45,183 nucleotides of DNA from Paracoccus sp. UBA889. GTDB taxonomy: Bacteria; Pseudomonadota; Alphaproteobacteria; Rhodobacterales; Rhodobacteraceae. Below the pieces are notes generated by a model. The model did not search any database, was not told where the DNA came from, and saw only the letters and a program-made list of their open reading frames with translations. Numbering within the stretch: the first letter of the stretch is position 1; the number at the start of each line of letters is the position of its first letter. Made by a program: the position numbers and the translations under genes. The DNA lies in NCBI GenBank assembly GCA_002294185.1, contig DBFD01000050.1:140215-185397 (forward strand). The letters are read 5' to 3'. This document shows positions 4,539 through 29,522 of the stretch, in pieces.

Positions 4539-4541
4539 GCC

Positions 4542-7678: not shown

Positions 7679-7690
7679 GTGACGGGCTCC

Positions 7691-8551: not shown

Positions 8552-8552
8552 G

Positions 8553-9458: not shown

Positions 9459-9482
9459 CGGCGCCCTCGTATCGGGATGTCG

Positions 9483-9513
9483 TGCCGCCGCCGGGAATGG
9501 CCCGGCGGCGGCA
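9483..9513 (-). terminator. Intercistronic 13-bp hairpin after ABC binding protein
   Basis: A perfect 13-bp stem (TGCCGCCGCCGGG / CCCGGCGGCGGCA) with loop AATGG starts 5 nt after the binding-protein stop. No T-run follows. It probably raises binding-protein output relative to the permeases by partial termination or protection from 3' exonucleases. Confidence 0.65.
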
Positions 9514-9518
9514 TGCGG

Positions 9519-10871: not shown

Positions 10872-10911
10872 CTTCCTCTCCTCCCAAAAAGAATTCCGCT
10901 GGATGCCGTTT

Positions 10912-11961
10912 CTAGCCGGCCATCAGCCAGACCCGCTCGGCCGGAATATCCAGCCGGACTTCCATGCCGACATCCAGCAGCCTTCGCGATTGTTCGTTCA
11001 CGATGATCCGCTCGGCGCCGCATTCGACCACGTAATTCACCGTGGCCCCGAAGAAATCCCGTGCCGCGATCCGGCCGGCCACCATGTCGTCGCCGCCTTC
11101 GACATTGGCGGGATGAATGTCGATGCCCTCGTTGCGCAGCATGGCGTGAACGCGGCTGCCATCGGCCATCCCCGGTTGCGCGACCACGCTGAGCGTGCCA
11201 AAGCCCGTCTTTACCGCGTCCGTGCCGGTCATGGTGCCGGGAAAGATGTTCGACGCGCCCATGAAATCGGCGACGTCCACCGATACCGGTTGCCGGTAAA
11301 GATCCTCGGGCGGGCCGAACTGCGCCAGATGGCCGTTGAAAATCACCGCAATCCGGTCGGCCAGTTCCATCGCCTCGACCTGATCATGGGTCACGAAGAT
11401 CGTGGTGATTCCCAGTCGCTGCTGCAGGGTTCGGATGAACCGGCGCATTTCGCCGCGCAGCTTGGTGTCCAGGTTTGCCAGGGGTTCGTCCATCATCAGC
11501 ACGGAAGGTTTGGTGATCAGCGTCCGCGCGATCGCGACCCGCTGCATCTGCCCGCCGGACAATTGCGCCGGAAAGCGTTGCCGGAACGGGCCCAGTTGAA
11601 CCACGTCGATGATCTCGTCCAGGCGATCGCTGATCTCGGATCTGGGTGTTCCGCGCACCGACAGGCCGAAGGCGATATTCTTTTCCACAGTCATATGCGG
11701 AAACAGCGCATAGCGTTGAAACACCATGCCGACATTGCGGTCCTGCACCCGCAAATCCGAAACATCGCGATCGTCGAAATGGATTTCGCCGGTGGTCGGA
11801 TTTTCCAGTCCGGCGATCATCCGCAACGTCGTCGTCTTGCCGCAACCGGATGGACCCAGCAGCGCGACCAGCTCTCCGGACCGGATATCCAGATCGATAT
11901 TCTCGATCGCGGTGAACCCGCCGAACCGCTTGCTGATGGACCTGAGCTGCACTTGTGTCAC
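10912..11961 (-). CDS. ABC transporter ATP-binding protein (CUT/PotA-like, with TOBE domain)
   Basis: 349 residues. Walker A GPSGCGKTT (about 37-45), Q-loop FQRYALFPHMTV, signature LSGGQMQR (about 135-142), Walker B MMDEPLANLD and the H-loop TIFVTHD are intact. The C-terminal 110 residues form a TOBE-like regulatory domain. It energises the importer encoded downstream. The start is GTG at 11961, with only a weak ribosome binding site. The operator/promoter at 12000-12044 lies 38 nt upstream. Confidence 0.95.
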   Translation of the reverse strand: MTQVQLRSISKRFGGFTAIENIDLDIRSGELVALLGPSGCGKTTTLRMIAGLENPTTGEIHFDDRDVSDLRVQDRNVGMVFQRYALFPHMTVEKNIAFGLSVRGTPRSEISDRLDEIIDVVQLGPFRQRFPAQLSGGQMQRVAIARTLITKPSVLMMDEPLANLDTKLRGEMRRFIRTLQQRLGITTIFVTHDQVEAMELADRIAVIFNGHLAQFGPPEDLYRQPVSVDVADFMGASNIFPGTMTGTDAVKTGFGTLSVVAQPGMADGSRVHAMLRNEGIDIHPANVEGGDDMVAGRIAARDFFGATVNYVVECGAERIIVNEQSRRLLDVGMEVRLDIPAERVWLMAG

Positions 11962-11999
11962 GTCGTCTGACCCCCGTCCGGACCAAAATTGCTGCGGTC

Positions 12000-12044
12000 A
12001 AATTTGTAGATACAAATTTATGCGGTAAGCGCCCGATCTGTCAA
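12000..12044 (-). promoter_or_regulatory. Promoter and GntR/UTRA operator of the ABC/hydrolase operon (site A)
   Basis: On the minus strand a -35 TTGACA (12044-12039), an 18-nt spacer and a -10 TAAATT (12020-12015) are seen. A perfect 20-bp palindrome AAATTTGTAGATACAAATTT (12000-12019; 9-bp arms, 2-nt centre) covers the -10 and the start region. Related copies stand at 19092-19109 and 23521-23538. TGTA/TACA half-sites are usual for GntR-family proteins. The regulator gene at 13487-14224 lies one gene upstream. Confidence 0.75.
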
Positions 12045-12065
12045 CGGATATCTGTGCGATCGCGC

Positions 12066-13490
12066 CTATCGATCGGCCAGTCCCGCATGGGGCGCAATCA
12101 GCGCCAGCCGCTTCATGCCGGACCAGCCGCCGAATTCTTCGAACGCATCGCGCCAGCGGCCGGGCACCATGACGAAATGATGTTCCAGCCCGTGTTCCAT
12201 CACGCTGGTCACGACGGATGCGGCGCTTGCCCCGCCCGAGCGGTCCGAAAAGTTGCTGACCCAGCCCCGACATCCGGTGAAGCCGCTTTCCTCGGCGCGG
12301 ACGACATCGCCCTCGATGGCGAAGAACGCATCGCCATCGCGCGCGAGGCGCAGAACCGTCTGCGGCCCTTCGCCGAACTCGAAGTCGGCTATCGCGCCAA
12401 ATCTCGGCCCCTCGGCGGTGCCGCGTCCGATCATCGGGTGGTTGATCCATGCTGCGCGATCCCGCGCCATGTATAGCGGTCCGCCCCCGCCATGCCACAT
12501 CAGGATCCGGTCGCGGTCCATCTGCGGCGAGGTCATGTCCAACAGGCAGCCGACCCGCCCGGTCATCTCCCGGACCGCCATCTGCGTCACCGCGCCCATC
12601 ACGTCCCCTTCCGAGGCGACGGGCAGGTTGTCCTGTTCCTCGATCCAGCTGAACGCCGCACCCGGATGCATTCCCGGGGCTTGTTGCAATGCGGGCCAGT
12701 CCGAAACCGCCAGCGCGTCAAATCCGTGATCGCCCGCGATCGCGCGCAGCGCCAGCGCCGCCCGTGCCGTCAGCGCCATCTGGTCGTCGGACACGCCGCG
12801 AATCTCGGCCGCGGCTGCCATGTCAGCCACCTCCGCGCCGACTTCTGCGGCATCGGCGGCATCCATCCGCCCGGTCATCTCGTGCATGTCGACATGCGCG
12901 AACGCCACACCAAGCGCCGACATCAGCCCGGCCTGCGACACATCCATGTTGTAGAATGTCGGCGCCAGCCCGCCGACAAGCCCGACATGCGAGCCCTTCA
13001 GTCCGTGAGCCGTCCTGACCGCCATCAGGGTCTGCCGCAGCCGGGCCCGAAGTGCCGCGTCCGAGGGGGCGCCGAAATACCACTGCACCGGGGCATGGCG
13101 CAGATCACGCACCCCACGGGCAATCGACATCGTCATGTTCAGCGACACGAAACTGTTCAGCTGGATATCGCCTTCGTGGCTCGGTTCGGGCGTGGCCCAG
13201 ACGCCCATGGGAAGATCCGATGCCGCGATCTGGCGCGCGACATCGCCCATGGTGAACCCGCCATGCAGCAACAGGATGAATCCCGCGCCTTCGGCACGGC
13301 AATGATCGACCGCCTGCTGCGCCGCGCGGGCGTCCATCGGCAGGTCCGGGGCACTGACCAGGCCGATGCCCAGATCGGCGGTCAGATCGGCCAGCATCTT
13401 CTCGGCTGCTTCAAAGACACCGTGTCGCCGGGGGAAATAGCTGGGCAGGGAAGCGTTGATCAGGCCGATGCGAAACCGGACGTTCATCAT
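12066..13490 (-). CDS. L-fucose/L-arabinose isomerase superfamily protein
   Basis: 474 residues without signal peptide. The overall layout is that of FucI/AraA-type aldose-ketose isomerases: an N-terminal Rossmann-like half (LINASLPSYFPRR; FILLLHGGFTMGD), and a C-terminal half with the probable metal ligands Glu in ASEGDVMGAV (about 296-305), Asp in CLLDMTSP (about 320) and His in LMWHGGGGP (about 338), plus a later EHHFVMVPGRW. The family interconverts aldoses and ketoses with Mn2+ and an ene-diol intermediate. The start codon overlaps the end of the GntR gene. Within this operon it would supply a ketose to the 3-epimerase and kinase. The exact sugar is not predictable; sulfosugar isomerases also belong to this superfamily. 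Confidence 0.75.
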   Translation of the reverse strand: MMNVRFRIGLINASLPSYFPRRHGVFEAAEKMLADLTADLGIGLVSAPDLPMDARAAQQAVDHCRAEGAGFILLLHGGFTMGDVARQIAASDLPMGVWATPEPSHEGDIQLNSFVSLNMTMSIARGVRDLRHAPVQWYFGAPSDAALRARLRQTLMAVRTAHGLKGSHVGLVGGLAPTFYNMDVSQAGLMSALGVAFAHVDMHEMTGRMDAADAAEVGAEVADMAAAAEIRGVSDDQMALTARAALALRAIAGDHGFDALAVSDWPALQQAPGMHPGAAFSWIEEQDNLPVASEGDVMGAVTQMAVREMTGRVGCLLDMTSPQMDRDRILMWHGGGGPLYMARDRAAWINHPMIGRGTAEGPRFGAIADFEFGEGPQTVLRLARDGDAFFAIEGDVVRAEESGFTGCRGWVSNFSDRSGGASAASVVTSVMEHGLEHHFVMVPGRWRDAFEEFGGWSGMKRLALIAPHAGLADR

Positions 13491-14224
13491 TCGGACCTTT
13501 CCCGCCGCGACGCGCCGACCAGTTCGTAGGTGATCGGGGAATCGCGATATACTTCGTCATAGAAAACCGGCGCGCCGCTGTCGTCCAGGGCCGAACATGC
13601 CTGCGCCAGGATCGGCGTGTTCGGGGCCAGGCCCAACAGCCTGGCCACTTCGTCCGAGGCCAGCTGGGGGCGGATCGTCTCGCATGCGCTGCCCCATTCC
13701 AGGCCGAAGCGCCGGACCAGGATCCGCAGGATCGACTGGTTCGGCCCATCCTCGGGGAAATCCGCATCGGACAAATCCGGCACCAGGCGGGTCGGCACCC
13801 AGGTGTTCACAAGCATCCGCGGTTGCCCGTCCACCATGCGCAGCCGCTGGATCCGGACGACCGGCTCGTCGAACAGGGCCTGCACCGTCGCGGGCGCGTC
13901 GCCGTCGAAGCGGTCGATCCCGATCAGTCGCGCACCCGGCACGCGGCCGCTTTTCAGGATCGCATCGGTAAACGAGATCAGGCAGGTCGTCGATGGCGGC
14001 GACAGGGTGCTGACCGTGTAGCCGCTGCCTTGCCGTGAAATCAGGTAACCCGCGCTGACCAACATCTCGAGCGAGCGGCGCACCGTCACCCGACTGACAC
14101 CGAATGATTTCGCAAGCGCTTCTTCCGAGGGCAACCGTGTGCCGACCGAATACAGCCCCTGCTTCAACCGTGCCAGTATCTCTTCGTGGATGGTCTGATA
14201 TCGCGGCACATTCTGCTCGGCCAT
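13487..14224 (-). CDS. GntR-family transcriptional regulator, HutC/UTRA subfamily
   Basis: 245 residues. The N-terminal winged helix-turn-helix (YQTIHEEILARLKQGLYSVGTRLPSEEALAKSFGVSRVTVRRSLEMLVSAGYL, residues 9-61 with the recognition helix at SRVTVRRSL) is followed by a UTRA ligand domain (about 80-240). UTRA proteins are usually repressors released by a small metabolite such as a sugar phosphate or amino-acid breakdown product. It is sixth in a seven-gene operon, and the palindromes at 12000, 19092 and 23521 carry the TGTA-N2-TACA core expected of this family. It is therefore the best candidate to control all three operons including its own. A sugar phosphate intermediate of the pathway is a reasonable effector (inference). 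Confidence 0.92.
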   Translation of the reverse strand: MAEQNVPRYQTIHEEILARLKQGLYSVGTRLPSEEALAKSFGVSRVTVRRSLEMLVSAGYLISRQGSGYTVSTLSPPSTTCLISFTDAILKSGRVPGARLIGIDRFDGDAPATVQALFDEPVVRIQRLRMVDGQPRMLVNTWVPTRLVPDLSDADFPEDGPNQSILRILVRRFGLEWGSACETIRPQLASDEVARLLGLAPNTPILAQACSALDDSGAPVFYDEVYRDSPITYELVGASRRERSE

Positions 14225-14273
14225 GTGTCATCCTCTCCTTGCGATGGCAGCACTTTCCGTTGCACCGTCGCGG

Positions 14274-15746
14274 CTACACGCCTTGCCAAACCGATTTCGT
14301 CTGGCTGTAAAGCGCCAGTGCGTCGCGCCCCATCTCGCGGCCATATCCGCTTTGGCCCATGCCGCCAAAGGGCGAGGCCGCGTCGGTATCGCCCCAGCAA
14401 TTGATCCAGACCGTTCCGGCATGCAGGCCCGCGCCCATTCTTGCCACACGTCCAGCGTCCCGCGTCCAGCAACCCGCCGCAAGGCCATATTCGGTATCGT
14501 TCGCACGGGCCAGCACCTCGTCCTCGTCATCGAAGGTCAGGACAGACAGGACCGGGCCAAAGATTTCCTCGCGCGCAATGCGCATATCGTCGCGAACCCC
14601 GGTCAGGATCGTGGGCTGCACGAACCATCCGGCGTCGCCCCGCCGCGCGCCACCGGCCACGCATTCGGCGCCGGCATCGCGCCCATCGGCGATATAGCCC
14701 AGAACCTTGTCCATCTGCGGACGCGAAATCACCGGTCCAAGATCGTGGCCCCTGGCATCCATCCCCGGCCCGATCGACAGCCCGTCAGCCAGCTTGCGCA
14801 GCCCCTCCAGCACCCGATCATGCAGGCTGCGATGCACGAACAGCCGGGCGCCGGCGGTGCAGGATTGACCGTTATTGCCGAAAAGGGCCCAGAACGCGCC
14901 CGGGATCGCAAGTTCCAGATCCGCGTCGGCGAAGATGATGTTGGCGGCCTTGCCACCCAGTTCAAGCGAGACCTTCTTGAGGTTCCCTGCCGAAGCCCTG
15001 ACGATCTCGCGCCCGGTTGCCGTCGATCCCGTAAACCCGATCTTGTCGACGCCGGGATGTGACGCAAGCGCGGCGCCGGCATCGCGGCCCGATCCCGGAA
15101 CGACGTTCAGCACACCGGGCGGAAACCCGACCTCCAGTGCCAGATCGGCCAGATACAGGGCGCTGAGCGGGGTTTGTTCGGCGGGCTTCAACACGATGGT
15201 GTTGCCCGTCGCCAGGGCCGGGGCCAGCTTCCACGCGACCATCAGCGTCGGGTAGTTCCAAGGTGTGATCAGCCCGCAGACGCCCATCGGCTCGATCCGC
15301 GTGTGGTTCCGGCGACTGGGGGTGGATACGGGGATCGTGGCGCCTTCGATCTTGTCGGGCCAGCCCGCGAAATAGCGGAAATGCCGCGCCGACCAGACCG
15401 CGTCGACATCGCGCGCGATCGCGAAGGGCTTGCCATTGTCCAGCGCGTCAAGCTGACCGAAGACATCCTTGCGCTCCTCGATCGCGTCGGCCAGTTTCCA
15501 GATCAGCCGCCCGCGATCATGCGGCGTCAGTCGCGTCCACGGCCCTCCAAGCGCGGCGCGCGCGGCAGCCACCGCCATGTCGATCTGCGCGGGCTCCGCC
15601 GACGCGATCCGGCACAAGACCGCCCCGCTTGACGGGTCGAACACATCAAGTTCGGACGAGCCCGCGACCTCGGCCCCGTCGATACGCAGGGGTTGAACGC
15701 GCGACAGGAAGGTCCGGACCGCGGGAAGGCGGGGGATCAGGTTCAT
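14274..15746 (-). CDS. NAD(P)-dependent aldehyde dehydrogenase
   Basis: 490 residues, standard class length. Key features are TPWNYP (Asn of the oxyanion site, about 164), VLKPAEQTP (coenzyme-binding Lys), GFTGSTATGR (the Rossmann loop), LELGGKAANI (general-base Glu, about 260) and NNGQSCTAGAR (nucleophilic Cys, about 295). It oxidises an aldehyde to the carboxylate. ATG overlaps the aldolase stop (ATGA), so aldolase and dehydrogenase are translationally coupled; the aldehyde half-product of the LacD-type aldolase is the expected substrate. The acid so formed could be the substrate of the acyl-CoA synthetase of the co-regulated operon. Confidence 0.93.
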   Translation of the reverse strand: MNLIPRLPAVRTFLSRVQPLRIDGAEVAGSSELDVFDPSSGAVLCRIASAEPAQIDMAVAAARAALGGPWTRLTPHDRGRLIWKLADAIEERKDVFGQLDALDNGKPFAIARDVDAVWSARHFRYFAGWPDKIEGATIPVSTPSRRNHTRIEPMGVCGLITPWNYPTLMVAWKLAPALATGNTIVLKPAEQTPLSALYLADLALEVGFPPGVLNVVPGSGRDAGAALASHPGVDKIGFTGSTATGREIVRASAGNLKKVSLELGGKAANIIFADADLELAIPGAFWALFGNNGQSCTAGARLFVHRSLHDRVLEGLRKLADGLSIGPGMDARGHDLGPVISRPQMDKVLGYIADGRDAGAECVAGGARRGDAGWFVQPTILTGVRDDMRIAREEIFGPVLSVLTFDDEDEVLARANDTEYGLAAGCWTRDAGRVARMGAGLHAGTVWINCWGDTDAASPFGGMGQSGYGREMGRDALALYSQTKSVWQGV

Positions 15747-16663
15747 GCGACGGCCTCGGAGAGGCGTGCCAGACGACGGCGACCTTCATCGGCAAGCCAG
15801 GCTTCGGCGGCGGTGGGTCCGTCATTGCCGAAGATGGCGATGGCGTCGTTCCAGATCGCGCGACCGCACATGAAACCGGCGAATCCCGCGCCCGATTCGA
15901 CAGCCAGCTTCAGCGAGGATTCGAACCGTTCGAACGTGACCCCTGCGGACAGATACAAAAGCGGAATGTCCCCGGCGGCCTCGGCGGCGTGGCGCAGGGC
16001 GGCGGCGGCCTCGGGGCGGGTCATCGTCGGGGTGCCGAAACCCTCGACATGGGACAGGTTCAGCGGAATCTGGACCTTGAGGATATCGATCCCGAATTCC
16101 GGCGCGGCGAAAAGCCGGGTCGCCTCGGTCACGAGTCGGGGCTTCAGCCGGGCGAATTCCGCGCCGTCCTCGTCGGGCACGGCGCGGTCATAGACGATCG
16201 GCTCGAACAGGAAGGTGATGCCGTGTTCGCGGCATTCCGCGCCGATCCGGCGCACCCGTTCGAATTTCTGCGCATTGATCGGGGTCGGGTCGTTGGGGGC
16301 AAAATACAGAAAGAACTTCAGCACCCGGACCCCCAGCCCCGGATAATCCGCGATCCTGAGGTCTTCGGGCAGAACCGTCATCCGGTCCTCGTCCGCGATG
16401 CGATAGACATCGGCCTCGTAGGCCAGCATGCTTTCACAGCCCGGCGCGATCGAGGGCAGCAATTCGCGACCGTAATTCGCATCGACCAGCAAGGTGCTGG
16501 CCTCGGGGCTGAGCTGCTCGGCCACCAGTCGCTTGAACAGCAACAGGTCGCCTTTCCCGGCCTTGGCACCGCGTGCCTGGCGCAGCATCCGGGCCAGCCC
16601 GCTGCCCTGATCGACGGCAACTCCGCGGATCGGACGCATGCTCAGTGGTTCGGAACGGGTCAC
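15743..16663 (-). CDS. LacD-family class I aldolase (tagatose-1,6-bisphosphate aldolase-like)
   Basis: 306 residues. Segments matching LacD are GVAVDQGSGLARML (cf. ALAFDQRGALKRMM), LLVDANYGRELLP, VKFFLYF-like VLKFFLYFAPND, FLFEPIVYD, DILKVQIPLNLSHVEGFG with the Schiff-base Lys (about 195), and PLLYLSAGVTFERF. LacD cleaves ketose-1,6-bisphosphates to dihydroxyacetone phosphate and glyceraldehyde phosphate; YihT, the sulfofructose-1-phosphate aldolase, is in the same family. Here the neighbouring kinase is of DhaKL type, so a ketose monophosphate is the likely substrate. The start is GTG with AGGAGA upstream, overlapping the dhaK stop. The first residues differ from LacD, where the usual N-terminal helix is shorter here. 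Confidence 0.85.
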   Translation of the reverse strand: MTRSEPLSMRPIRGVAVDQGSGLARMLRQARGAKAGKGDLLLFKRLVAEQLSPEASTLLVDANYGRELLPSIAPGCESMLAYEADVYRIADEDRMTVLPEDLRIADYPGLGVRVLKFFLYFAPNDPTPINAQKFERVRRIGAECREHGITFLFEPIVYDRAVPDEDGAEFARLKPRLVTEATRLFAAPEFGIDILKVQIPLNLSHVEGFGTPTMTRPEAAAALRHAAEAAGDIPLLYLSAGVTFERFESSLKLAVESGAGFAGFMCGRAIWNDAIAIFGNDGPTAAEAWLADEGRRRLARLSEAVA

Positions 16664-17691
16664 TGGCTTTTCTCCTTTTCAGCATGCCGGATGGACGGAA
16701 AGAACGGCGTATCCGAGGGCGCGGTCCACAGCCGCAGCATGTCGCCCGCAGGCTCGAGCAGCGAAATCGAAAAGCCGCCCATTTCCTGCGTCGTCACGAA
16801 GGATCCGATCATGGGCGCGACCGCCGCGATGCCGCGCGCGGCCAGCGCGTGTCGGGTCTCGTTCCAGACGGTCAGAAGCTCCATCAGCGTGGTGCCGCCC
16901 ATGCCATTGACGATCACGGCGGCCTGTCCGCCTGACGCGATCGGGTAATCCCCCAGCAGCTTGTCGACGATCAGCGTGACGAGATCGCGTACCGGGCCGA
17001 CCCCCGTCCGCCCGATCCCCGGTTCGCCATGCACCCCCATGCCCAGATAGATTTCGTCGTCGGGCAGGTCGAACATCGGCTGGCCGGTCAGCGGCGAGAT
17101 GCCCGGCGACAGCGCCGCGGCCAGGGTCACGGTGCGCGCGCGGACGGCCCGGCCCAAGGTCATCAAATCGTCCAGCGGCATTCCTGCCTCGGCCGCGGCG
17201 CCGAGGATCTTGTAGATGAACATGGTGCCGGGGGCGCCGCGACGATCCTGGATGCGGTCGCGCGGTGCGGACGAGATGTCGTCATACATGGGCAGGGCGC
17301 GGACCCTCAGCCGCTCTTCCTCGGCCAGCATCACTGCCGCGCGGCCGTTGATCATGTCGCCGGAATGCTGCGAGATCAGAAGGATGCAGCCCGCCTTGCC
17401 CGATACCTCGCGGATGCCGTCAAGGATCAGATCGGCCGAGGGCGCGGCGAACACGTCGCCGACCACATTGGCATCCAGAAGGCCCGCCCCGACGAACCCC
17501 ATGGCAATCGGTTCGTGCCCCGAACCATTGCCGATCAGCAGCGTCACCTTTCGATCGGGATCCTTGCGGCCCTTCGCCCGCACCACGATGCGGGGATCCT
17601 GATGGCCCCGGACGACCTGTTCGAAAGCCGACACATAGCCGTCGATCATGTCGTCGACGATGCTTTCCGCCGCGTTCATCAGCTTTTTCAC
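16660..17691 (-). CDS. Dihydroxyacetone kinase-like subunit DhaK
   Basis: 343 residues, the size of a stand-alone DhaK. The substrate site shows GNGSGHEP (about 51-58, His56) and GMGVHGEPG (about 215-223) whose His binds the substrate carbonyl covalently as a hemiaminal. DhaK-type proteins therefore act on ketoses or hydroxyketones; members are known for dihydroxyacetone and for four-carbon erythruloses. The ATP-binding partner DhaL is encoded just upstream with a 4-nt overlap. No DhaM phosphotransferase gene is nearby, so ATP rather than PEP is likely to be the donor. GTG is the start codon. Confidence 0.92.
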   Translation of the reverse strand: MKKLMNAAESIVDDMIDGYVSAFEQVVRGHQDPRIVVRAKGRKDPDRKVTLLIGNGSGHEPIAMGFVGAGLLDANVVGDVFAAPSADLILDGIREVSGKAGCILLISQHSGDMINGRAAVMLAEEERLRVRALPMYDDISSAPRDRIQDRRGAPGTMFIYKILGAAAEAGMPLDDLMTLGRAVRARTVTLAAALSPGISPLTGQPMFDLPDDEIYLGMGVHGEPGIGRTGVGPVRDLVTLIVDKLLGDYPIASGGQAAVIVNGMGGTTLMELLTVWNETRHALAARGIAAVAPMIGSFVTTQEMGGFSISLLEPAGDMLRLWTAPSDTPFFPSIRHAEKEKSQ

Positions 17692-18233
17692 AGCGCGCTT
17701 TCCTTGCCTGCCAGGGTTTCAAGGATGATCACGACCGACACCGCGCCGGGATCGACATGGCCGCGTCCGCCATTCTCGACATATTGCGCGCGGCCCCTGC
17801 GTGCGCTCAGGTCGCGGGTGCGGTCGCGACCGGCGACGGCGGCATCGACGGCATCCTGCACCGTGCCCTCCGCCAGCGCGTGCGCCGCCGGCGCCAGCGC
17901 GTCGATCATGCTCTTGTCGCCCGTGGTCACCTGACCCAGATCCTTGATCCGCTCGCAGGCGCGTTGCAGGCCCTCGCCCAACGCGGCGTTTTCGTTCAGA
18001 TGCCGTTCGATCTCGATCAGGATCAGCCCGAACAACGTCCCCGATGCACCACCCGACGCCCGCATGAACGCCTTGGCCTGCGCGCCCCTGTCGGCCTGCG
18101 CCGCGCGGGTCAGGCCGCGCAGCATGGTCGCGCCATGATCGCCGTCTCCCAAGGCTGCATCCAGCCGGTTCAGCGCATCGGCATGGACCGCGATCCGGGC
18201 CTGAAGCGCCAAGAAGAATTCGGGCCCGGTCAT
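17688..18233 (-). CDS. Dihydroxyacetone kinase-like ADP/ATP-binding subunit DhaL
   Basis: 181 residues. LDAALGDGDHG (about 24-34) supplies the three Asp residues that hold the two Mg ions, and GGASGTLFG and TTGDKSMIDAL are the other nucleotide-binding segments. It forms the phosphoryl-donor half of the kinase with DhaK. ATG overlaps the epimerase stop (ATGA). Usual DhaL length is about 200-210, so this one is a little short at the C-terminus. Confidence 0.92.
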   Translation of the reverse strand: MTGPEFFLALQARIAVHADALNRLDAALGDGDHGATMLRGLTRAAQADRGAQAKAFMRASGGASGTLFGLILIEIERHLNENAALGEGLQRACERIKDLGQVTTGDKSMIDALAPAAHALAEGTVQDAVDAAVAGRDRTRDLSARRGRAQYVENGGRGHVDPGAVSVVIILETLAGKESAL

Positions 18234-19066
18234 CGCGCAAAGACCCGCTGCATGAAGTCCAGCGTCTGCCGCGCGGCCTCGGTCGGGTCGGGCTCGATCG
18301 CGCGCCAGACCTTCACATCCGCGCTGTTCGGGTTGGACGGCATCACGAACATTTCCGCGGTGATCCAGCCGTCATAGCCGATATCCGACAGCGCCGTGGC
18401 ACAATGTTCAAAATCGAAATGACCCGAGCCCGGCACACCCCTGTCGTTGTCCGAGACATGAAAATGCACCAGGGCGTCGCCGGTGGCGCGGATCGCGGCG
18501 GCCGGATCCTTCTCCTCGATGTTCATGTGAAACGTATCCAGCAGAACGCCCACATGCGCGGCCCCGGTGGCGCGGGCAATCGCCGTGGCATCGGCGGCGG
18601 TGCTGGTCAGATCGGTTTCGAACCGGTTCACGGCCTCGATCCCCAGGGTCACGCCATTCTGCGCAAGCACCGGTTCGATCCGGGCCAGGGTCCGTGCCGA
18701 TCGGTCGGCCCGATCCGAATCGCCCGGCGCAAAGACGCCCCATGGCGCGGCAACGACACCGGCCAGCGATCTTGCCCCCAGGGCAGCGGTGATTTCGATG
18801 GCCTCGGTCAGGACGGCAACGGCCCGTTCGCGCACGGCGACCTGCGGCGATGTCGGGTCAGCCTCGGCGCCCAGGCCGGTCGAACAGGTCAGGTCCAGCC
18901 CGCGTGCGGCGGCAGCCTTGCCGATGCCGCTGGCGCGGTCCATTCCGATCCCCAGCAACGAAAGCTCGACCCCGTCAAAGCCCAGATCGGCCGCGATGTC
19001 GAGAATCGGCAAGGGGTCGTCCTGCCACGCTTTCATCCACAATCCCGCATGAACGCCGAATTTCAT
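18230..19066 (-). CDS. Ketose 3-epimerase-like TIM-barrel protein (D-tagatose/D-psicose 3-epimerase family)
   Basis: 278 residues. The metal ligands of the D-tagatose/D-psicose 3-epimerase family are readable in order: Glu in LGIEAVNRFE (about 151), Asp in VLLDTFHMNIEE (about 184), His in VHFHVSDNDRG (about 210) and Glu in ITAEMFV (about 244). The segments NRFETDLTST and DTFHMNIEE are close to D-psicose 3-epimerases. The family moves the C3 hydroxyl configuration of free ketoses. It opens the seven-gene operon, 25 nt from operator site B. With the isomerase it would convert an unusual aldose into the ketose accepted by DhaKL. Confidence 0.88.
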   Translation of the reverse strand: MKFGVHAGLWMKAWQDDPLPILDIAADLGFDGVELSLLGIGMDRASGIGKAAAARGLDLTCSTGLGAEADPTSPQVAVRERAVAVLTEAIEITAALGARSLAGVVAAPWGVFAPGDSDRADRSARTLARIEPVLAQNGVTLGIEAVNRFETDLTSTAADATAIARATGAAHVGVLLDTFHMNIEEKDPAAAIRATGDALVHFHVSDNDRGVPGSGHFDFEHCATALSDIGYDGWITAEMFVMPSNPNSADVKVWRAIEPDPTEAARQTLDFMQRVFAR

Positions 19067-19090
19067 CTGCCATCCCTCGCTTGCCTCTAC

Positions 19091-19120
19091 ATATTAGTAG
19101 ATACAAATTAGTCAGGTCAA
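19091..19120 (-). promoter_or_regulatory. Promoter and GntR/UTRA operator of the epimerase-kinase-aldolase operon (site B)
   Basis: On the minus strand TTGACC (19120-19115), an 18-nt spacer and TAATAT (19096-19091) form a good promoter. The operator TATTAGTAGATACAAATT (19092-19109, plus-strand reading) matches site A at 16 of 18 positions and lies between -35 and -10. It is 25 nt before the epimerase ATG and begins beyond the end of the acyl-CoA synthetase gene, whose stop overlaps the -35. Confidence 0.7.
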
Positions 19121-20763
19121 TTACCTTCTGCCTGCCGCAGGGCCTTTCGGTTGATCTTGCCCGACGAGGTCATCGGGAATTCGTCCACATAGTCGATCTC
19201 TCGTGGCGCCTTGTAAGATGCGAGCTTGTTGCGGACATGGGCGCGCAATTCCTCGGTCAGCGACGCATCGCCGATGAATCCCGAGGCCAGACGCACGAAG
19301 GCCTTGACGATCGTGCCACGCTGGGCATCCGGCTTGCCGATCACGCCGGCTTCGGCCACGGCGGGGTGTGACAGCAGGCATTCCTCGATCTCGGTCGGGC
19401 CGATGCGGAATCCCGACGATTTGATCAGGTCGTCCGACCGGCCCTTGTACCAGAAATACCCGTCCGCATCGCGCACCGCCAGATCATGGGTGCGCAGCCA
19501 GTCGCCCAGCCGCAATTCGGCCTCTTTCCCGGCATTGTTCAGATAGCCAAGAAATCGCGTCGGCGATGTCGCAGGCGTCACGATTTCGCCCGGCTCTCCG
19601 TCCGCCACCTCGATTCCTTCGGCATCGACCAGCCGCACGTCGTGGCCGGGATAGGCCACGCCCATGGATCCGGGTCTTCGCGGATAAAGCCGCGAACAAT
19701 TGCCGATCAGATGGTTCACCTCGGTCATGCCGTAGAACTCGTTGCAGACCACGCCCAGCCTGTCCTCGGCCCAGACGAGGGTATCCGCCGCCAGGGCCTC
19801 GCCCCCGGTGCAGATCACCCGCAGCGACAGATCATGGCTGTCGCGCGGCTGGGCCGTCTGCGCCAGACGCTTGACCGCCGTGGGCGCCAGGAAGACATGC
19901 GTCACCTTGTGGCGGGCCATGAATTCATAGGCCCATTCTGCCGTGAAGCGCGCTTCCGAGGTGACGATCGGCCGCCCGGCCAGCCATGCGGGCATCATCA
20001 TGTCCAGCAAGCCGCCGACCCATGCCCAATCCGAGGGCGACCAGAACACCGCGTCCGCGTCCTGCAACGACAGGTTGTAGAACAGGTTGATCGAGGGGCG
20101 ATAGGCGGCCAGGATCCGGTGCCCGTGCAGGATGCCCTTGGGCATCCCGGTCGATCCCGACGTATACATCAGCAAGGCGGGATCATCGGGCCCGGTATAG
20201 TCCGGTTCGAATCCGGGCGGGGCGGCGCTGTCCAGAATGGCCCGCAGATCGGGCTCCGTCCCCGCGCTTTCGGAGACGAGGATATCGGTCAGATACCCGA
20301 ACCGCCCTGCTTCGTCCCGCAGGCTGGCCCAGGCGGCTTCGGTGGTCACAAGACAGCGCGCCTCGCAATCATTCAGCGCATGGGCCAGGGCATCCGACCC
20401 GTAAAGCTGCGACAGCGTCACCGCCGTTCCGCCCAGCTTGCACACGGCCATATGCCCGATGGCCGTTTCGGGGCGCATCCCGGTATGAAGACCGACCAGA
20501 TCGCCGCGGCCATAACCCAGTCCTCGCAGATGCGCGGCAAGGGTCGTTGCGGCCGCGTCGATCTGGGCGAAGCTCCAGGTTTCAAGGCGGCCGTCCGGCC
20601 GTTCGAACAGCATGGCCGGCCTGTCCGCGCCCTCCGGTCCCAGCTGCCGGCCCAGCGTCATGGAAAAGATGTTTGCATCCGCCGGAATGTCGATCGTCAC
20701 GGCCTCGCCGTCACGGCGCAGCCCGATCTCGGCAAGTTGCGCCTCTGTCCAGGTCTCAAGCAT
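19117..20763 (-). CDS. AMP-forming acyl-CoA synthetase
   Basis: 548 residues of the acetyl/medium-chain acyl-CoA synthetase type. The adenylation motifs are present: YTSGSTGMPKGILHGH (A3, about 200), NEFYGMTEVN (A5), GDWLRTHDLAVRDADGYFWY (A7), GRSDDLIKSSGFRIGP (A8) and SSGKINRKALR with the catalytic Lys near the C-terminus. It turns a carboxylic acid, ATP and CoA into acyl-CoA. ATG at 20763 is preferred over an ATG at 20781 because GGGAGA precedes it; it overlaps the DUF35 gene by 8 nt. The acid made by the aldehyde dehydrogenase is a candidate substrate, since both genes share the operator. Confidence 0.93.
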   Translation of the reverse strand: MLETWTEAQLAEIGLRRDGEAVTIDIPADANIFSMTLGRQLGPEGADRPAMLFERPDGRLETWSFAQIDAAATTLAAHLRGLGYGRGDLVGLHTGMRPETAIGHMAVCKLGGTAVTLSQLYGSDALAHALNDCEARCLVTTEAAWASLRDEAGRFGYLTDILVSESAGTEPDLRAILDSAAPPGFEPDYTGPDDPALLMYTSGSTGMPKGILHGHRILAAYRPSINLFYNLSLQDADAVFWSPSDWAWVGGLLDMMMPAWLAGRPIVTSEARFTAEWAYEFMARHKVTHVFLAPTAVKRLAQTAQPRDSHDLSLRVICTGGEALAADTLVWAEDRLGVVCNEFYGMTEVNHLIGNCSRLYPRRPGSMGVAYPGHDVRLVDAEGIEVADGEPGEIVTPATSPTRFLGYLNNAGKEAELRLGDWLRTHDLAVRDADGYFWYKGRSDDLIKSSGFRIGPTEIEECLLSHPAVAEAGVIGKPDAQRGTIVKAFVRLASGFIGDASLTEELRAHVRNKLASYKAPREIDYVDEFPMTSSGKINRKALRQAEGN

Positions 20764-21139
20764 GGTCCGTCTCCCGTTCATTCAGCCGCAGCCAAAGGCC
20801 GGGCCGAGGCCCGTTCGGCGCCATCAGCTGTCCCGTTTCGCCCCTTGCCTCGGGATTGCCCAGGGCGACCGTCGTCGCGCCATCCGCACCCTCGAACCGC
20901 GCCAGCGCAAAGGCCGCCGCCAGGGCGTCGGTGCGCAGAACCACGCGGGCGCGACCGGACAGACGCGCCCAGTCATGCGCCTCTGCACCGCACTCCGCGC
21001 AAACCAGCCGCGGCGGAAAGCTGATCCGTCCGCATCCCTTGCAACGCGACGCCAGGGCGACGCCGGCACGCAATGCGTCGAAATACGGGGCCATCCCGCC
21101 CTCGGGCAGCGTGTAGTCCAGGGCTATCGAAAATCTCAT
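20756..21139 (-). CDS. DUF35 / OB-fold acyl-CoA-associated zinc-ribbon protein
   Basis: 127 residues. A rubredoxin-like zinc ribbon with two CxxC pairs (RCKGCG and VCAECG, about 40-60) is followed by a small OB-fold. Such proteins bind tightly to thiolase-like enzymes; in the steroid side-chain aldolases Ltp2-DUF35 the two proteins form one active complex. ATG overlaps the thiolase stop (ATGA) and has GGAGG 6 nt upstream, so equimolar synthesis with the thiolase-like protein is likely. Confidence 0.88.
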   Translation of the reverse strand: MRFSIALDYTLPEGGMAPYFDALRAGVALASRCKGCGRISFPPRLVCAECGAEAHDWARLSGRARVVLRTDALAAAFALARFEGADGATTVALGNPEARGETGQLMAPNGPRPGLWLRLNERETDHA

Positions 21140-22308
21140 TCCACGCCTCCCAGAATGGTCACGGCGCACAAGGTCGCGATGCCGCCATGGGTATCGGCCA
21201 GCGCGAAACGCGGGGTAATCCGCGGCCCGAGACCCGCATAGCGCCCCTCCAGCTGGTGCGCGCAGGACACGATTTGCGCCACGCCGGTCGCGCCCACCGG
21301 CGCCCCCTGCCCAAGCAGGCCGCCCGACAGATTGGTCGGCACCGTGCCCGTCGCGTCGAACACGCCGCGTCGTTCTGCGGCAACGACGTCATCCGCCAGG
21401 CCCAACGCCTCCAGCGCTTGCAGCTGCGCGCCGGAATAGCTGTCATAGACCTCGGCCAGCCCGATCTGCGCCGGTGTGATCCCGGCGTGCGAATAGGCCT
21501 GCTGAGCGGCCAGGCGCTTGGCGGCGAATGTGCCCGGATCGGCGCGTTCGGCCAGGCGAACCCGGTCATTGGCCGAACCCATGCCGACGATCCGGGCGCG
21601 GCCCTTGCCGGTTCCCGGCAGGTTGCCGGGCTGAGACAGGATCACGCAGGCTGCCCCATCGCTGAGGGGAGAGCAGTCCAGCCGCCGATAGGGCGCGGCG
21701 ATCATCGTCGATGCCGCGACATCCTCCGGCGCGATGTCCAGCGGCAGATGCGCATTGGGATTGTGCCGCGCATTCTGCCTGTTTCGCACCGCGACGCGGG
21801 CAAAATCGCTGACGGTTGCATCCGTGCGGCGCATGAAGGCCAGGGCCGACATGGCATAGATCGAGGTTGAATCGATCCCCGTCATGCCGTCTGTCCAGGC
21901 GTCGAAGGACAGAGAATAAAGCGCGGCGACATCCGCGCCCGAAAGATGGGCGGCCGCAGGCTCCAATCCCAGCACGGCCACGCGCCGCGCCTGACCCGAG
22001 GAGACCAGCGCCGCCCCGGCCTGGACAGCAACCTGGCCCGACGCGCCGCCGCCCTCTGCCCGCATCACGCGGATACCGAAAAGACCCAGCTCATCCGCCA
22101 AGAGGCTGGCGGGGTTCAGTTGCAGGGTAAGGAAATCGCTTTCCGAGGCGACGATCAGCGCGTCGATATCGCGGCGCTGCAGGCCCGCATCGCGCAGGGC
22201 CGCCGCGAAAGCCTGCCGCGCCCAGTCGCGAAAGCTGCTGCCATCCTTGCGGCGGCCGAACCGGGTCAGCGCCCCGCCTGCGACCACCATGCCGATTTCG
22301 TTTGCCAT
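21136..22308 (-). CDS. SCP2-type thiolase-like protein, probably a non-thiolytic lyase
   Basis: 390 residues with the SCP2/lipid-transfer thiolase fold: ALIVASESDF, GQVAVQAGAALVSSG, EVYDSYSGAQLQALEALG and TNLSGGLLGQGAPVGATG. The thiolase nucleophile Cys is not present; the corresponding segment reads RAEGGGASG. The GHPxGATG His is also changed (GAPVGATG). Together with the coupled DUF35 protein this points to an Ltp2-like retro-aldolase on a 3-hydroxyacyl-CoA rather than to a thiolase, though this is inference. ATG at 22308 gives a normal N-terminus (MANEIGMVVAG); it lies 2 nt after the MFS stop. Confidence 0.83.
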   Translation of the reverse strand: MANEIGMVVAGGALTRFGRRKDGSSFRDWARQAFAAALRDAGLQRRDIDALIVASESDFLTLQLNPASLLADELGLFGIRVMRAEGGGASGQVAVQAGAALVSSGQARRVAVLGLEPAAAHLSGADVAALYSLSFDAWTDGMTGIDSTSIYAMSALAFMRRTDATVSDFARVAVRNRQNARHNPNAHLPLDIAPEDVAASTMIAAPYRRLDCSPLSDGAACVILSQPGNLPGTGKGRARIVGMGSANDRVRLAERADPGTFAAKRLAAQQAYSHAGITPAQIGLAEVYDSYSGAQLQALEALGLADDVVAAERRGVFDATGTVPTNLSGGLLGQGAPVGATGVAQIVSCAHQLEGRYAGLGPRITPRFALADTHGGIATLCAVTILGGVE

Positions 22309-22310
22309 CG

Positions 22311-23507
22311 TCACCGCTCTGCCCGTCGCGGAAGCGGGAACAACAGCAGGACACCGACCAGATTCATCGCCAGCAACAGCCACGCCAGAACCTGAAAGCC
22401 CGCCCCTTGCCATACGACCCCGCCGGCCGCCGGTCCAAGCGCCATCATCACCAGCCCGATCATGGCGATCAGGCCCAGATCGCGGCCCAGCCTGAACGGC
22501 GGCACATGGTTCCGCGTCAGAACCGGCCGCAGAATCGTATGCATCCCGTAGCCCGCCCCCTGAAGCAGCAGGATCGGCAGGATGGTTGTCGCCTGATAGG
22601 GTACGACGAGCAGCGCGAGCGGCGGCAACAGCATCACGCCAAAAACGCTGCGCGCCAGCAGAACAGGATCGAAAAGCCGGATCAGTGGCGCGCAGACCAG
22701 CCGTCCGAAAATCTGCGCAGGGCCCAGCAGCGCCGGAAGGATCAGCGCGAAATCGGCGGTTTCGGGCAGTTTTCGCAGATGCAGGGGCAGGATGAACAGC
22801 AGGGCCGCGTGGCTGAACATCAGCGTGGCGAAGGACAGCCCGATCAGCAGCACCGTCGGCGAGGCGCGACCGCGGGGCATGTCATGGCGCGACCGGTCCG
22901 CCGGGCGGGCCGCGCCTTCGGACGGTATCAGCACCGCCGCAGCCAGGACCAGGGCCGCAGCGGCAAGCATTACCGTGCGCCAGTCCGTGACTTGCAGCAG
23001 CCACCCCACCATCGGAAAGGTCAGAAGCGTGGCGAACCCGGCCACCAGGGTCACGGTCGCGACCGGACTGGCTGCGGAGGCGCCGAACCGACGCAGCAGG
23101 ATGGCGAAGCACGGATCATAGAGGGTGGCTGCCATCGACGCCCCCAGCAGCACCATCAGCGGGGCAAAAACGGCAAGCGTCTGTGCTTGCGACATGGCCA
23201 CGAGCAGGCTGGCACCGACCAGCGCTCCGCAGCGCATCGCCACTATTCCATGACCGATGTCGATCGTCCGACCCACCAGCGGCGAGGAAAACGCCCAGAG
23301 CAGGAAACCGGCCGTATAGGACGCGGTGAGGATGCTTGCCGACCACCCCGTCTCGGCCAGGATACGCCCCGTCAGTGCTGGAAAAAGGTAGTAAAGCCCC
23401 GACCACAGCATCAGCTGCGCGACCGCATGACGCCCGACCAGACTGGCCCGTCCCCGCGTCAATGCGGGCTCGATCCGGGCCATGGCCTTGGATGGTGGAA
23501 GGGACAC
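22311..23507 (-). CDS. Major facilitator superfamily transporter
   Basis: 398 residues, twelve predicted helices with a polar central loop near residues 200-220 (RPADRSRHDMPRGR). The motif between helices 2 and 3 is SSPLVGRTIDIG, a form of the MFS motif A. Close relatives are oxalate/formate-like or monocarboxylate MFS carriers, but I cannot assign a substrate. The start is GTG with CGGAG 6 nt upstream. It is the first gene of the operon, 13 nt from operator site C. It could import a second form of the substrate or export an intermediate. Confidence 0.88.
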   Translation of the reverse strand: MSLPPSKAMARIEPALTRGRASLVGRHAVAQLMLWSGLYYLFPALTGRILAETGWSASILTASYTAGFLLWAFSSPLVGRTIDIGHGIVAMRCGALVGASLLVAMSQAQTLAVFAPLMVLLGASMAATLYDPCFAILLRRFGASAASPVATVTLVAGFATLLTFPMVGWLLQVTDWRTVMLAAAALVLAAAVLIPSEGAARPADRSRHDMPRGRASPTVLLIGLSFATLMFSHAALLFILPLHLRKLPETADFALILPALLGPAQIFGRLVCAPLIRLFDPVLLARSVFGVMLLPPLALLVVPYQATTILPILLLQGAGYGMHTILRPVLTRNHVPPFRLGRDLGLIAMIGLVMMALGPAAGGVVWQGAGFQVLAWLLLAMNLVGVLLLFPLPRRAER

Positions 23508-23520
23508 GCCAGCTCCGGAA

Positions 23521-23566
23521 AATTTGTTAATACAAATTATCTAAGACATTTGACGTGAGAAGGCAA
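23521..23566 (-). promoter_or_regulatory. Promoter and GntR/UTRA operator of the MFS-thiolase-synthetase operon (site C)
   Basis: On the minus strand TTGCCT (23566-23561), a 17-nt spacer and TAGATA (23543-23538) make a promoter. The operator AATTTGTTAATACAAATT (23521-23538, plus-strand reading) abuts the -10 and would cover the transcription start. It matches site A at 16 of 18 positions. The MFS GTG lies 13 nt further on, so the leader is very short. Confidence 0.72.
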
Positions 23567-23843
23567 GAATGGATCGCGTCGGTGCCGCCTTCAAGCAGGC
23601 GCGCGCAAGCGGGCTCCGGCGATGCTGAGGTCCCTGTCGAGGCCCTGTCGCCCAAGCGCATTCCCGGCAGTTCGCGGTGCTGCGGCGGCATCGGATCGCT
23701 GGCGCTACCGGCCGTCCCTGCTGCGAAGTTCCGCGTCCTTGCCGTGGCCTGACAGGCCACGGTATCGGCGCGTTCTTCATCGCCGTGACGGATGAGCCGC
23801 AGGGAAACGGTTGGTTCGGCCTGGTCAGCGCAGGCTTCCGCCG
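23539..23843. other. 305-bp region between two minus-strand operons
   Basis: No gene is supported. It holds the promoter of the MFS operon at its left end and a hairpin at 23742-23762. Short frames on both strands have neither ribosome binding sites nor recognisable products. Confidence 0.5.
23742..23762 (-). terminator. Hairpin after the PdxA2 operon
   Basis: CCGTGGCC-TGACA-GGCCACGG: an 8-bp perfect stem, extendable to 10 bp with a one-base loop, 82 nt after the pdxA2 stop codon. There is no T-run on the minus strand, so it may be a Rho-dependent 3' end hairpin rather than an intrinsic terminator. Confidence 0.4.
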
Positions 23844-24884
23844 TCAGCGTACGGGGTCGGTCGCCCAATTGTCGGCGAGGTGGCCTGTGCCGGAACGGCC
23901 GGGATTCAACCTGGCCAGCGCCAGGCCGAGCCGCGCCGCTGCCAGCGTCGCCCCAAGATCGGCCTTGCCGCGTCCGGCGATGTCGTAGGCGGTGCCATGC
24001 GCGGGGGTCACGATCGGAAAGCCGTAGCCCGCGATCAGGGTCACGCCACGATCAAAGCCCATCAGCTTCATCGCGATCTGGCCCTGGTCATGATACATCG
24101 TCAGCACCGCATCGAATTCGCCCCGCGTCGCCCGCACGAACACTGTGTCCGACGGTATCGGACCGGCGACATCCAGCCCCTCGGCCCGCGCCGCCTCGAT
24201 GGCGGGGGCGATGATATCCTCGTCCTCTTCGCCGAAATTGCGTCCGTCGCCCGCATGGGGGTTCAGCGCGGCGACGCCGATGCGCGGGGCCGGCTTTCCG
24301 GCGCCCTCCATCACCGTGACGGTCAGGCGGATGCTGGACAGGATGCGCTCGGCGCTGAGGCTGGCCGCAACCTCGCGCAGCGGAATATGAGAGGTGACGC
24401 GGGCGTTCCACACCTCTTCCAGCACGTTGAATTCGCGCCCGCTGCGATCCGCCCCCAGCGTCGCGTCGATAAAACCGATCTCATCGACATAGGCGGGCCG
24501 CGCCAGTCGCATCGAATGCTTGTTGAAGGGCGTGAACATCGCCGCATCCGCCACGCCCGCCTGCGCCAGACGCAGGGCCGCGGCGAAATTCTGCAGCGAG
24601 GCCGCCCCGGCCCCTTGGCTCGAGCGCCCCAGCGTCAGATCGCCCGGCGGACAATTCCCCAGATCGACCATGACCTTTCCCGCGGGCAGTCGATCGGGCA
24701 GGTCCGCCGCCGCGACAGTCGGCAGATCAAGGTCGAGGCCCCCGTGCCGCGCGCCCAAGCCCAGCAGCCGCGCGTCGCCCAGCACGATCACGTCCCGATC
24801 CCGCATGTCCTGGTGGGTCAACAGTTTCGCGGCCAGTTCCGGCCCCACGCCCCCCGCATCTCCGATCGCCAATGCCAGCCGCAT
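23844..24884 (-). CDS. PdxA2-type 4-phosphoerythronate/4-phosphothreonate dehydrogenase
   Basis: 346 residues of the PdxA family. The divalent-metal His residues are visible in RVTSHIPL (about 165), AALNPHAGD (about 209) and TMYHDQGQIAMKLMG (about 264), followed by the conserved GYGFPIVTPAHGTAYDIAG. PdxA itself acts in pyridoxal phosphate synthesis; the PdxA2 branch oxidises 4-phospho-D-threonate or 4-phospho-D-erythronate, with decarboxylation to dihydroxyacetone phosphate. Its place in a TRAP/kinase operon rather than beside ksgA or pdxJ favours the catabolic role. No DUF1537 acid-sugar kinase, the usual partner, is in the window; the only kinase in the operon is the DhaK-DhaL fusion, 102 nt upstream. 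Confidence 0.88.
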   Translation of the reverse strand: MRLALAIGDAGGVGPELAAKLLTHQDMRDRDVIVLGDARLLGLGARHGGLDLDLPTVAAADLPDRLPAGKVMVDLGNCPPGDLTLGRSSQGAGAASLQNFAAALRLAQAGVADAAMFTPFNKHSMRLARPAYVDEIGFIDATLGADRSGREFNVLEEVWNARVTSHIPLREVAASLSAERILSSIRLTVTVMEGAGKPAPRIGVAALNPHAGDGRNFGEEDEDIIAPAIEAARAEGLDVAGPIPSDTVFVRATRGEFDAVLTMYHDQGQIAMKLMGFDRGVTLIAGYGFPIVTPAHGTAYDIAGRGKADLGATLAAARLGLALARLNPGRSGTGHLADNWATDPVR

Positions 24885-24986
24885 CTTCGGCCCCTTCTCA
24901 TGTTGACGCGCGTTTCACCGCGCGCGGATGTCGTCTTCGCAGGGGCCGCCACGGGCGCCGGCCCGATCCCTGTCTTTCCGTCGCTG

Positions 24987-28943: not shown

Positions 28944-29503
28944 GGCCTGTCCTCCTTGCGGGACAGGGCCTCGGCTTCCTTCTCGGCCTCGGCGATGGCA
29001 TGTTCGATCTCGGCGTGTTCGCGGTCGATGCCGCGTGCCGCATCGCGGATCGCGCGCGGCATCGTCATCAGGGTGCCAAGGATCATCAGCACGGCGGAAA
29101 TCGGGATGACGGATTGCACGATATCCAGCGTCAGCCATGGCAGGCTGAGCAGCGAATCGAAGGCCGCGACCCTCAGCACCGCATAGCCGTACCATGCGAC
29201 AAGCGCGAAGAAGGCGACCACCAGCATTTCCGACAGGATGGCCAGCGCCACGGCAGGCCCGCGCGGCAATGCAGCGACCAGCCCTGCAAAGCCCATATGC
29301 GACCGCGTGAACACGGCATAGGTGGCGCCGAAATAGGTCAGCCATGCCAGCAGCACGCTTGCGACCTCGTCATACCACGAGGGTGACGAGCCCAGATAGC
29401 GCATGGTGGTCGAATAGACGACGGCGACGGCCAGCACGACCAACAGGACAAGGCAGATCGACTCGATCAGCCGGAGCAGGATCTTCTCTGTCTGGACAAT
29501 CAT
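28940..29503 (-). CDS. TRAP transporter small permease (DctQ family), second system
   Basis: 187 residues, four helices, with the DctQ segment MRYLGSSPSWYDEVASVLLAW (about 33-53). The C-terminal 40 residues are highly charged (EHAEIEHAIAEAEKEAEALS) and likely helical or coiled-coil. ATG at 29503 is chosen for the AGGAG upstream. Overlap with the large subunit predicts coupling. Confidence 0.9.
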   Translation of the reverse strand: MIVQTEKILLRLIESICLVLLVVLAVAVVYSTTMRYLGSSPSWYDEVASVLLAWLTYFGATYAVFTRSHMGFAGLVAALPRGPAVALAILSEMLVVAFFALVAWYGYAVLRVAAFDSLLSLPWLTLDIVQSVIPISAVLMILGTLMTMPRAIRDAARGIDREHAEIEHAIAEAEKEAEALSRKEDRP

Positions 29504-29522
29504 GGGGTGCTCCTGCGCGAGA

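Follow-up and report, generated by a model that had tools for sequence, protein, structure and literature searches.

A shared palindromic operator at three neighbouring operons of Paracoccus sp. UBA889 suggests a local GntR/UTRA regulon over sugar and CoA genes

Three neighbouring operons in a 45,183-nucleotide stretch of Paracoccus sp. UBA889 DNA (contig DBFD01000050.1; the whole stretch is called the window here) are headed by promoters that carry closely related palindromes with the common core TTTGT-N4-ACAAA. The 16 genes of these three minus-strand units comprise an importer unit (unit A, beginning with an ABC transporter ATPase gene, ATP), a sugar unit (unit B, beginning with a xylose-isomerase-like gene, EPIM) and a coenzyme A (CoA) unit (unit C, beginning with an MFS transporter gene, followed by that of a thiolase-fold protein, THIO). 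The sole regulator encoded among them is a GntR/UTRA protein (positions 13487–14224, in unit B). We propose that this protein is, very probably, an autoregulated repressor whose local regulon covers units A, B and C. Since the same operator is found at three neighbouring operons and recurs at the corresponding promoters of relatives, one repressor very probably controls a nutrient-breakdown pathway as a whole. A sequence-only reading of this DNA had suggested a local regulon of 14–16 genes in three operons; our count is 16, and the suggestion is supported by the rarity of the operator in its own genome and by its conservation in orthologous loci.

Operator A (12001–12018) reads AATTTGTATCTACAAATT on the minus strand, overlaps and follows the −10 element, and lies 39 nt before the ATP start. 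Operator B (19092–19109), AATTTGTATCTACTAATA on the minus strand, occupies the −35/−10 spacer and extends over the −10, 25 nt before the EPIM start; one of its half-site bases departs from the core, with TTAGT for TTTGT. Operator C (23521–23538), AATTTGTATTAACAAATT on the minus strand, lies 13 nt before the MFS start. All the words that the sequence-only reading had placed at 12000–12019, 19092–19109 and 23521–23538 are present there, and its range of 13–38 nt to the first start codons agrees with ours, the distance at operator A being 38 nt when counted from its 20-mer. With up to three mismatches allowed, the 18-base pattern AATTTGTNNATACAAATT matches no places in the window but these three, each on both strands, and 100 dinucleotide-preserving shuffles of the window yielded no match. 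Likewise, within 6000–24000, TTTGTNNNNACAAA, which has 10 fixed bases, finds operators A, B and C and no other place at up to two mismatches.

Conservation was examined in 33 loci of relatives, found through the isomerase of unit B at 54–70% identity. Six of them come from a 390-genome sample of the order, in which 34 other genomes had an isomerase match, the remaining 28 (at most 35% identity) being left out of the site scan; the other 27 are named loci, including those of Paracoccus onchidii, Nitratireductor, Monaibacterium, Marinovum, Halovulum, Yoonia, Ruegeria, Hoeflea and Silicimonas. In the majority of these loci most of the cluster is retained, while L073 has the isomerase alone and L070 the isomerase with THIO, ZnR and LIG of unit C. 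A variant cluster in L039 contains an added nucleoside-phosphorylase-family gene and a short-chain dehydrogenase (14573–15346 and 18617–19381).

When the 200 bases upstream of every gene start were scanned with TTTGTNNNNACAAA, a site was found at 71 of the 78 promoters that head a unit at up to two of 10 mismatches, and at 61 of 78 at up to one. Before a unit-heading ATP, the site is present in 21/22 loci (20/22 at up to one mismatch); before a unit-heading EPIM, in 25/25 (18/25); before MFS with readable upstream DNA, in 13/13 (11/13), three of these from the main scan and ten from loci fetched specially; and before THIO with no same-strand cluster gene ahead of it, in 12/18 at either threshold. 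Among 325 starts of eleven other cluster genes, which served as a control, 23 have a match at up to two mismatches and none at up to one. In 3100 shuffles of 62 ATP and EPIM upstream regions, the corresponding rates are 7.0% and 0.5%, and these shuffles are slightly generous to chance because the base composition of the operators is preserved in them. The counts exclude upstream regions cut by a locus end, the ATP match of L073 (a 30% paralogue with no site) and the THIO match of L056, where a two-mismatch match 139 bp before the gene was set aside as chance-like. The conserved operator marks out 16 genes as a functional unit, with a well-supported boundary, in bacteria of the Rhodobacteraceae and Rhizobiaceae type.

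The placement of the operator tracks operon layout, and it is missing where operons are fused. Where ATP is internal to a unit the site is absent in nine of nine loci, and where EPIM is internal, in five of five; in L060, L062, L064 and L075, for instance, ATP begins 12–18 bases past the isomerase and has no site. The five rearranged clusters in which both genes are internal and lack the site all have one before THIO; in three of them it also lies about 150 bp ahead of the gene of the solute-binding protein (SBP), and in the remaining two 0.8–0.9 kb ahead of the part of SBP that was matched. Loss of the palindromes from loci that keep the regulator, which the sequence-only reading had named as evidence to look for against itself, was seen in part: they are kept save in six Silicimonas/Boseongicola loci (L049, L052, L056, L057, L063 and L072), which have kept the regulator together with the sites before EPIM and ATP and have none at the CoA unit at up to one mismatch.

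In its own genome, a 3.24 Mb draft in 79 contigs, the operator is rare. At up to three mismatches, the 18-mer AATTTGTNNATACAAATT matches operators A–C and a single three-mismatch place on another contig (L004 1501–1518, contig C60, between puuE-like and permease genes named by eye). The 16-base WTTTGTNNNNACAAAW at up to one mismatch has seven places, operators A and C being exact and operator B and four others having one mismatch, while the same word read backwards gives two. Within the genus, ATTTGTWNNWACAAAT at up to one mismatch matches in 9 of 61 genomes, own genome counted, and exact copies are found in the own genome only, among the matches listed. The operator word is therefore not spread over many unrelated promoters in this genome or in the genus; such a spread is what the sequence-only reading had said would count against it. 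A strict form of the pattern matches in the own genome only among 198 genomes, and this carries no added weight. In six cluster-bearing relatives of other genera, WTTTGTNNNNACAAAW has 5–40 places each versus 3–27 for the backwards control, and therefore the 16-mer is less selective there. The places outside the cluster that were read (C5:20724, C41:121274, C60:86709 and C60:20780 in the own genome, and one unlinked place that is exact in G298 and has one mismatch at the same locus in G280) lie in or beside a sulfotransferase-like open reading frame, a GntR-type regulator gene, an unassigned open reading frame, the gap between the puuE-like and permease genes, and a gap between CCA-adding-like and ABC-exporter-like genes, all named by eye from translations with no family search. 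No consistent extra target emerges from these four own-genome places and the G298/G280 place, and a wider regulon was rejected. At C41:121274 (L079, about 1475), a different palindrome, TTGTGTATACACAA, adjoins the GntR-type regulator gene.

A promoter-like TTGACA-18-TAAATT (12015–12044, minus strand), recognized by consensus match only, precedes unit A, and TTGACC-18-TAATAT (19091–19120, minus strand) precedes unit B, its TTGAC being largely conserved in 26 EPIM promoters, window included. The claim of the sequence-only reading that good −35/−10 elements accompany each site held in the promoter scan for operators A and B and failed for operator C, where no pair passed. The information content across 21 distinct ATP promoters (that of the window among them) is 1.9 bits per base for the half-sites, 0.7 for the centre and 0.4–0.6 for the flanks; in the 26 EPIM promoters the values are 1.8, 0.9 and 0.5–0.8. 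Most EPIM promoters keep TTGAC ahead of the operator and TAAT at its end, and therefore the operator fills the −35/−10 spacer. The EPIM promoters also have weaker operator copies 14 bases to either side, with means of 6.4 and 6.0 of 10 matches versus 2.2 at random positions. The available part of a survey of the GntR family (PMC4494728) gives GT-N4-AC as the operator consensus of HutC-type regulators and describes extra boxes near the main site, 7–12 nt from its centre; both features of our sites are therefore already known for the GntR/HutC family. The TTTGT-N4-ACAAA sites contain the palindromic GT-N4-AC of HutC (UTRA) regulators, and binding by a protein of this kind is predicted.

The regulator belongs to that subfamily. 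Its N-terminal GntR winged helix (PF00392, 4.1e-19) is followed by a C-terminal UTRA domain (PF07702, 1.3e-22), so that a GntR/UTRA gene does lie inside the middle operon, as had been claimed. Its closest solved relatives are YvoA/NagR and DasR, and the residues SRVT.R of the DNA-reading helix are invariant in 24 aligned sequences, window included. The gene is present in 30 of the 33 relatives' loci and absent from L059, L070 and L073; in G449 and G450, the genomes behind L070 and L073, it is found elsewhere, beside cluster genes and with a matching site. L059, from a metagenome-assembled 'Rhodobacter sp.', keeps EPIM, the kinase, the isomerase and the importer, and has no site at the ATP promoter. 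Searched for the regulator, its genome gave matches of at most 30% identity across most of the protein and of up to 40% in short stretches; seven other genomes searched alongside it each have a match of 49–62%. The operator-less ATP upstream region of this regulator-less cluster (L059 3871–3990) is a natural test of regulator/operator pairing. In L085 and L086 (G450 C1), three more paralogues of the regulator, 45–47% identical, lie close together; one of them adjoins an acyl-CoA ligase 66% identical to LIG, and the only palindromes nearby have two mismatches.

Does the regulator gene have an operator of its own? None lies within 14150–14330 at up to three mismatches, and boxes with two mismatches, 28–75 bp before the gene in six relatives (L037, L058, L061, L069, L071 and L074), are close to the control rate; a separate operator was therefore rejected. 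Because the gene sits in unit B with no site of its own nearby, it would be autoregulated through operator B. We propose that a dimer of the regulator binds TTTGT-N4-ACAAA at the three promoters. Operators A and B overlap the −10, operator B also filling the spacer, and operator C overlaps the one −10-like word that can be picked out there by eye, so a bound regulator is expected to obstruct RNA polymerase; from the position of the sites and from the family, we infer repression. A small molecule, the imported substrate or a derivative of it, may bind the UTRA domain and cause the regulator to leave the DNA, and units A, B and C would then be switched on together.

Several observations weigh against this proposal. 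At operator C, the scan passed no promoter, and the TTGCCT-19-GATAAT that can be picked out by eye has 9 of 12 matches but a 19-base spacer. Matches by chance occur in 7% of the controls at up to two mismatches, a rate that is not negligible, and 10 of the 71 counted sites are at exactly that limit. The loci are interrelated and were all found through one gene, and therefore the site counts are not independent; moreover, unit-first and internal starts were sorted after the sites had been seen. The regulator gap in L059 could be a gap in the metagenome assembly. Exact copies of the 16-mer lie outside the cluster in the genomes of three relatives, one in G298, three in G393, and in G144 (among the matches listed). 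The own genome encodes four UTRA proteins, three besides the one in the cluster, and the HutC consensus GT-N4-AC is generic. With four candidates, the operator would be assigned to the in-cluster protein by linkage, by the joint absence in L059 and by the consensus.

These last points lead to the rival view that another UTRA or GntR-type protein reads the palindromes, the in-cluster GntR being a passenger or acting at some promoters only. The available text of PMC4494728, in which GT-N4-AC is common to most of the HutC subfamily, would agree with it, but the in-cluster gene is the only regulator of the 16, is found in 30/33 loci and stays in the rearranged layouts, regulator and site are absent together in L059, and both exact sites of the genome fall in this cluster; we find this view quite improbable. 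That the three words are chance AT-rich matches has a negligible probability. Promoter regions are indeed AT-rich, but the shuffled windows (0/100) and the other gene starts (0/325, against 61/78 at up to one mismatch) rule chance out, and the half-sites are conserved while the centre and flanks vary.

A role of the GntR protein as an activator or dual regulator at some promoters is compatible with all the results. We regard it as unlikely, as the spacer and −10 positions fit steric repression, and NagR and DasR of the HutC subfamily are described as repressors in the available parts of PMC4333415 and PMC4918961. The extent of the regulon is a further matter. In the six Silicimonas/Boseongicola loci, units A and B have their sites and unit C has none at up to one mismatch; unit C therefore does not belong to the regulon everywhere, and it might be that the core regulon is units A and B, the unit-C site having been recruited in some lineages where the CoA unit does a different job. 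We consider this doubtful, since the site is present at 25 of 31 unit-C promoters (MFS-first 13/13, THIO-first 12/18) and in most loci THIO, ZnR and LIG are close to the sugar genes. A single repressor over all three units remains our preferred reading. As regulation, it is of a known kind; its design is ordinary and its novelty low. HutC and TreR are further examples of GntR/HutC-type local regulons. With NagR and DasR, the system shares the winged helix and UTRA domain, the GT-N4-AC palindrome, a regulator inside the regulated locus and weaker extra boxes, and it differs from them in the operator letters TTTGT-N4-ACAAA and in gene content. The more interesting part is the pathway that the operator delimits.

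All genes of the three units are on the minus strand. In unit A, ATP (10912–11961, family search) is followed by SBP (9519–10871) and two ABC permeases (8553–9458 and 7691–8551), all three assigned by Pfam search, and by NH, a nucleoside-hydrolase family protein (6569–7678, PF01156). Unit B begins with EPIM (18230–19066), a xylose-isomerase-like TIM barrel whose nearest NCBIfam model, D-psicose 3-epimerase (NF051856), gives 191.2 bits, below the curated cut-off of 300. It continues with the DhaL-like and DhaK-like kinase subunits DAK2 (17688–18233, Dak2 family) and DAK1 (16660–17691, Dak1 family), the LacD/DeoC-family aldolase ALDO (15743–16663, PF01791), the aldehyde dehydrogenase ALDH (14274–15746, family search) and the regulator, and ends with ISO (12066–13490). 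The latter is a sugar isomerase with a clear arabinose/fucose-isomerase fold in the fold search, although a sequence search of the PDB at 0.001 gave no match; its 94.9 bits against the sulfoquinovose isomerase SftI model (NF048012) are below the curated cut-off of 700. Unit C consists of the MFS transporter (22311–23507, family search), THIO (21136–22308, its start moved inward to the ATG where homology begins), the ChsH2/DUF35-type zinc-ribbon protein ZnR (20756–21169) and LIG, an AMP-forming acyl-CoA ligase (19117–20781, family search).

Of all the members of this sugar regulon the most unusual is THIO, a thiolase-fold protein without the catalytic cysteine. In the acyl-CoA aldolase Sal, Gly is reported to stand in place of the thiolase nucleophilic Cys, and the general acid of Ltp2/Sal enzymes is the second Tyr in TcLtp2 and Cys304 in CtSal. 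In 21/21 aligned sequences, THIO has Gly where thiolases have the catalytic Cys and Ala where they have the GHP/GHA His. G87, which aligns with the nucleophilic Cys of 6esq, is invariant in the 21, as is Y287-D288 (YDSY, YDAY, YDSF and one YDPY). THIO has two features of Ltp2/Sal-type, DUF35-dependent acyl-CoA aldolases, Gly for the nucleophilic Cys and the catalytic Tyr of a YDxF/Y motif; the adjoining ZnR, of which PF12172 (1.7e-9) matched the zinc-ribbon part only, is a candidate DUF35-type partner. The fold search of THIO, taken alone, gives no preference to the aldolase reading. A classical thiolase function is unlikely, given the replaced Cys and His; judged by these residues, THIO is likely not a thiolase.

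What, then, might the cluster do? We offer tentatively the idea, speculative as a whole, that the operator delimits a catabolic pathway not yet described, in which one GntR/UTRA repressor runs a sugar arm and a CoA arm. An imported nucleoside-like or glycosyl compound would be cleaved by the PF01156 protein, and the freed sugar would be isomerized, perhaps epimerized, and then phosphorylated at C1 by the DhaK/DhaL-type ketose kinase. The LacD-type aldolase might split the sugar phosphate into dihydroxyacetone phosphate (DHAP) and an aldehyde, which would then be oxidized; an acid might be converted to its CoA thioester, which the thiolase-fold enzyme, reworked into an acyl-CoA aldolase, would cut. 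A literature search gave no description of this cluster that we recognized among the matches listed. The operator shows which genes belong in joint tests, and the three promoters provide a reporter for finding the inducer and hence the substrate.

Known pathways resemble parts of this scheme. The DHAP shunt uses an MtnK/MtnA/Ald2-type kinase, isomerase and aldolase. As far as the available part of its description goes (PMC12632272), the shunt serves 5'-deoxynucleosides in E. coli under MtnR, a repressor of the DeoR family whose possible semi-palindrome overlaps the −10; like our cluster, it joins isomerase, kinase and aldolase genes and has a possible nucleoside substrate. Here, in contrast, the regulator is of the GntR family, the kinase Dak1/Dak2, the aldolase LacD/DeoC (PF01791) and the isomerase of the arabinose/fucose fold, with an added importer and CoA unit. 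Since the enzyme families differ, the cluster at most works like the DHAP shunt. Sulfosugar pathways share with it the remote isomerase similarity (SftI), an aldolase related to YihT and an ABC importer, and Pfam searches of all 16 genes recognized no sulfite-releasing family. The sulfofucose pathway of Paracoccus wurundjeri is oxidative, with a dehydrogenase, lactonase, dehydratase and aldolase, according to the available text of PMC12421959, and as an identity for our cluster it was rejected for this different chemistry. For deoxyribonate in Klebsiella michiganensis, the available part of PMC6365646 proposes a CoA ligase acting on the sugar acid together with a thiolase-family enzyme. LIG and THIO resemble this pair, except that THIO is without the catalytic Cys; in Pfam searches, none of the 16 genes matched a hydroxyacyl-CoA dehydrogenase, CoA-transferase or glycerate kinase family.

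Upstream of unit C, a second sugar-type cluster (23844–30719) encodes a PdxA-like protein, a fused DhaK-DhaL, a TIM barrel and TRAP transporter parts. No operator of the TTTGT-N4-ACAAA type was found in it, and its PdxA-like and TIM-barrel proteins had no match among those listed in orthologous loci, where a match of the fused DhaK-DhaL would be hidden by DAK1/DAK2. Elsewhere in the window, an open reading frame of 1848 residues (36454–42000) matches an endonuclease/exonuclease/phosphatase domain once, in its final third, and the plus strand at 1439–5711 encodes TRAP transporter proteins and a family III CoA-transferase.

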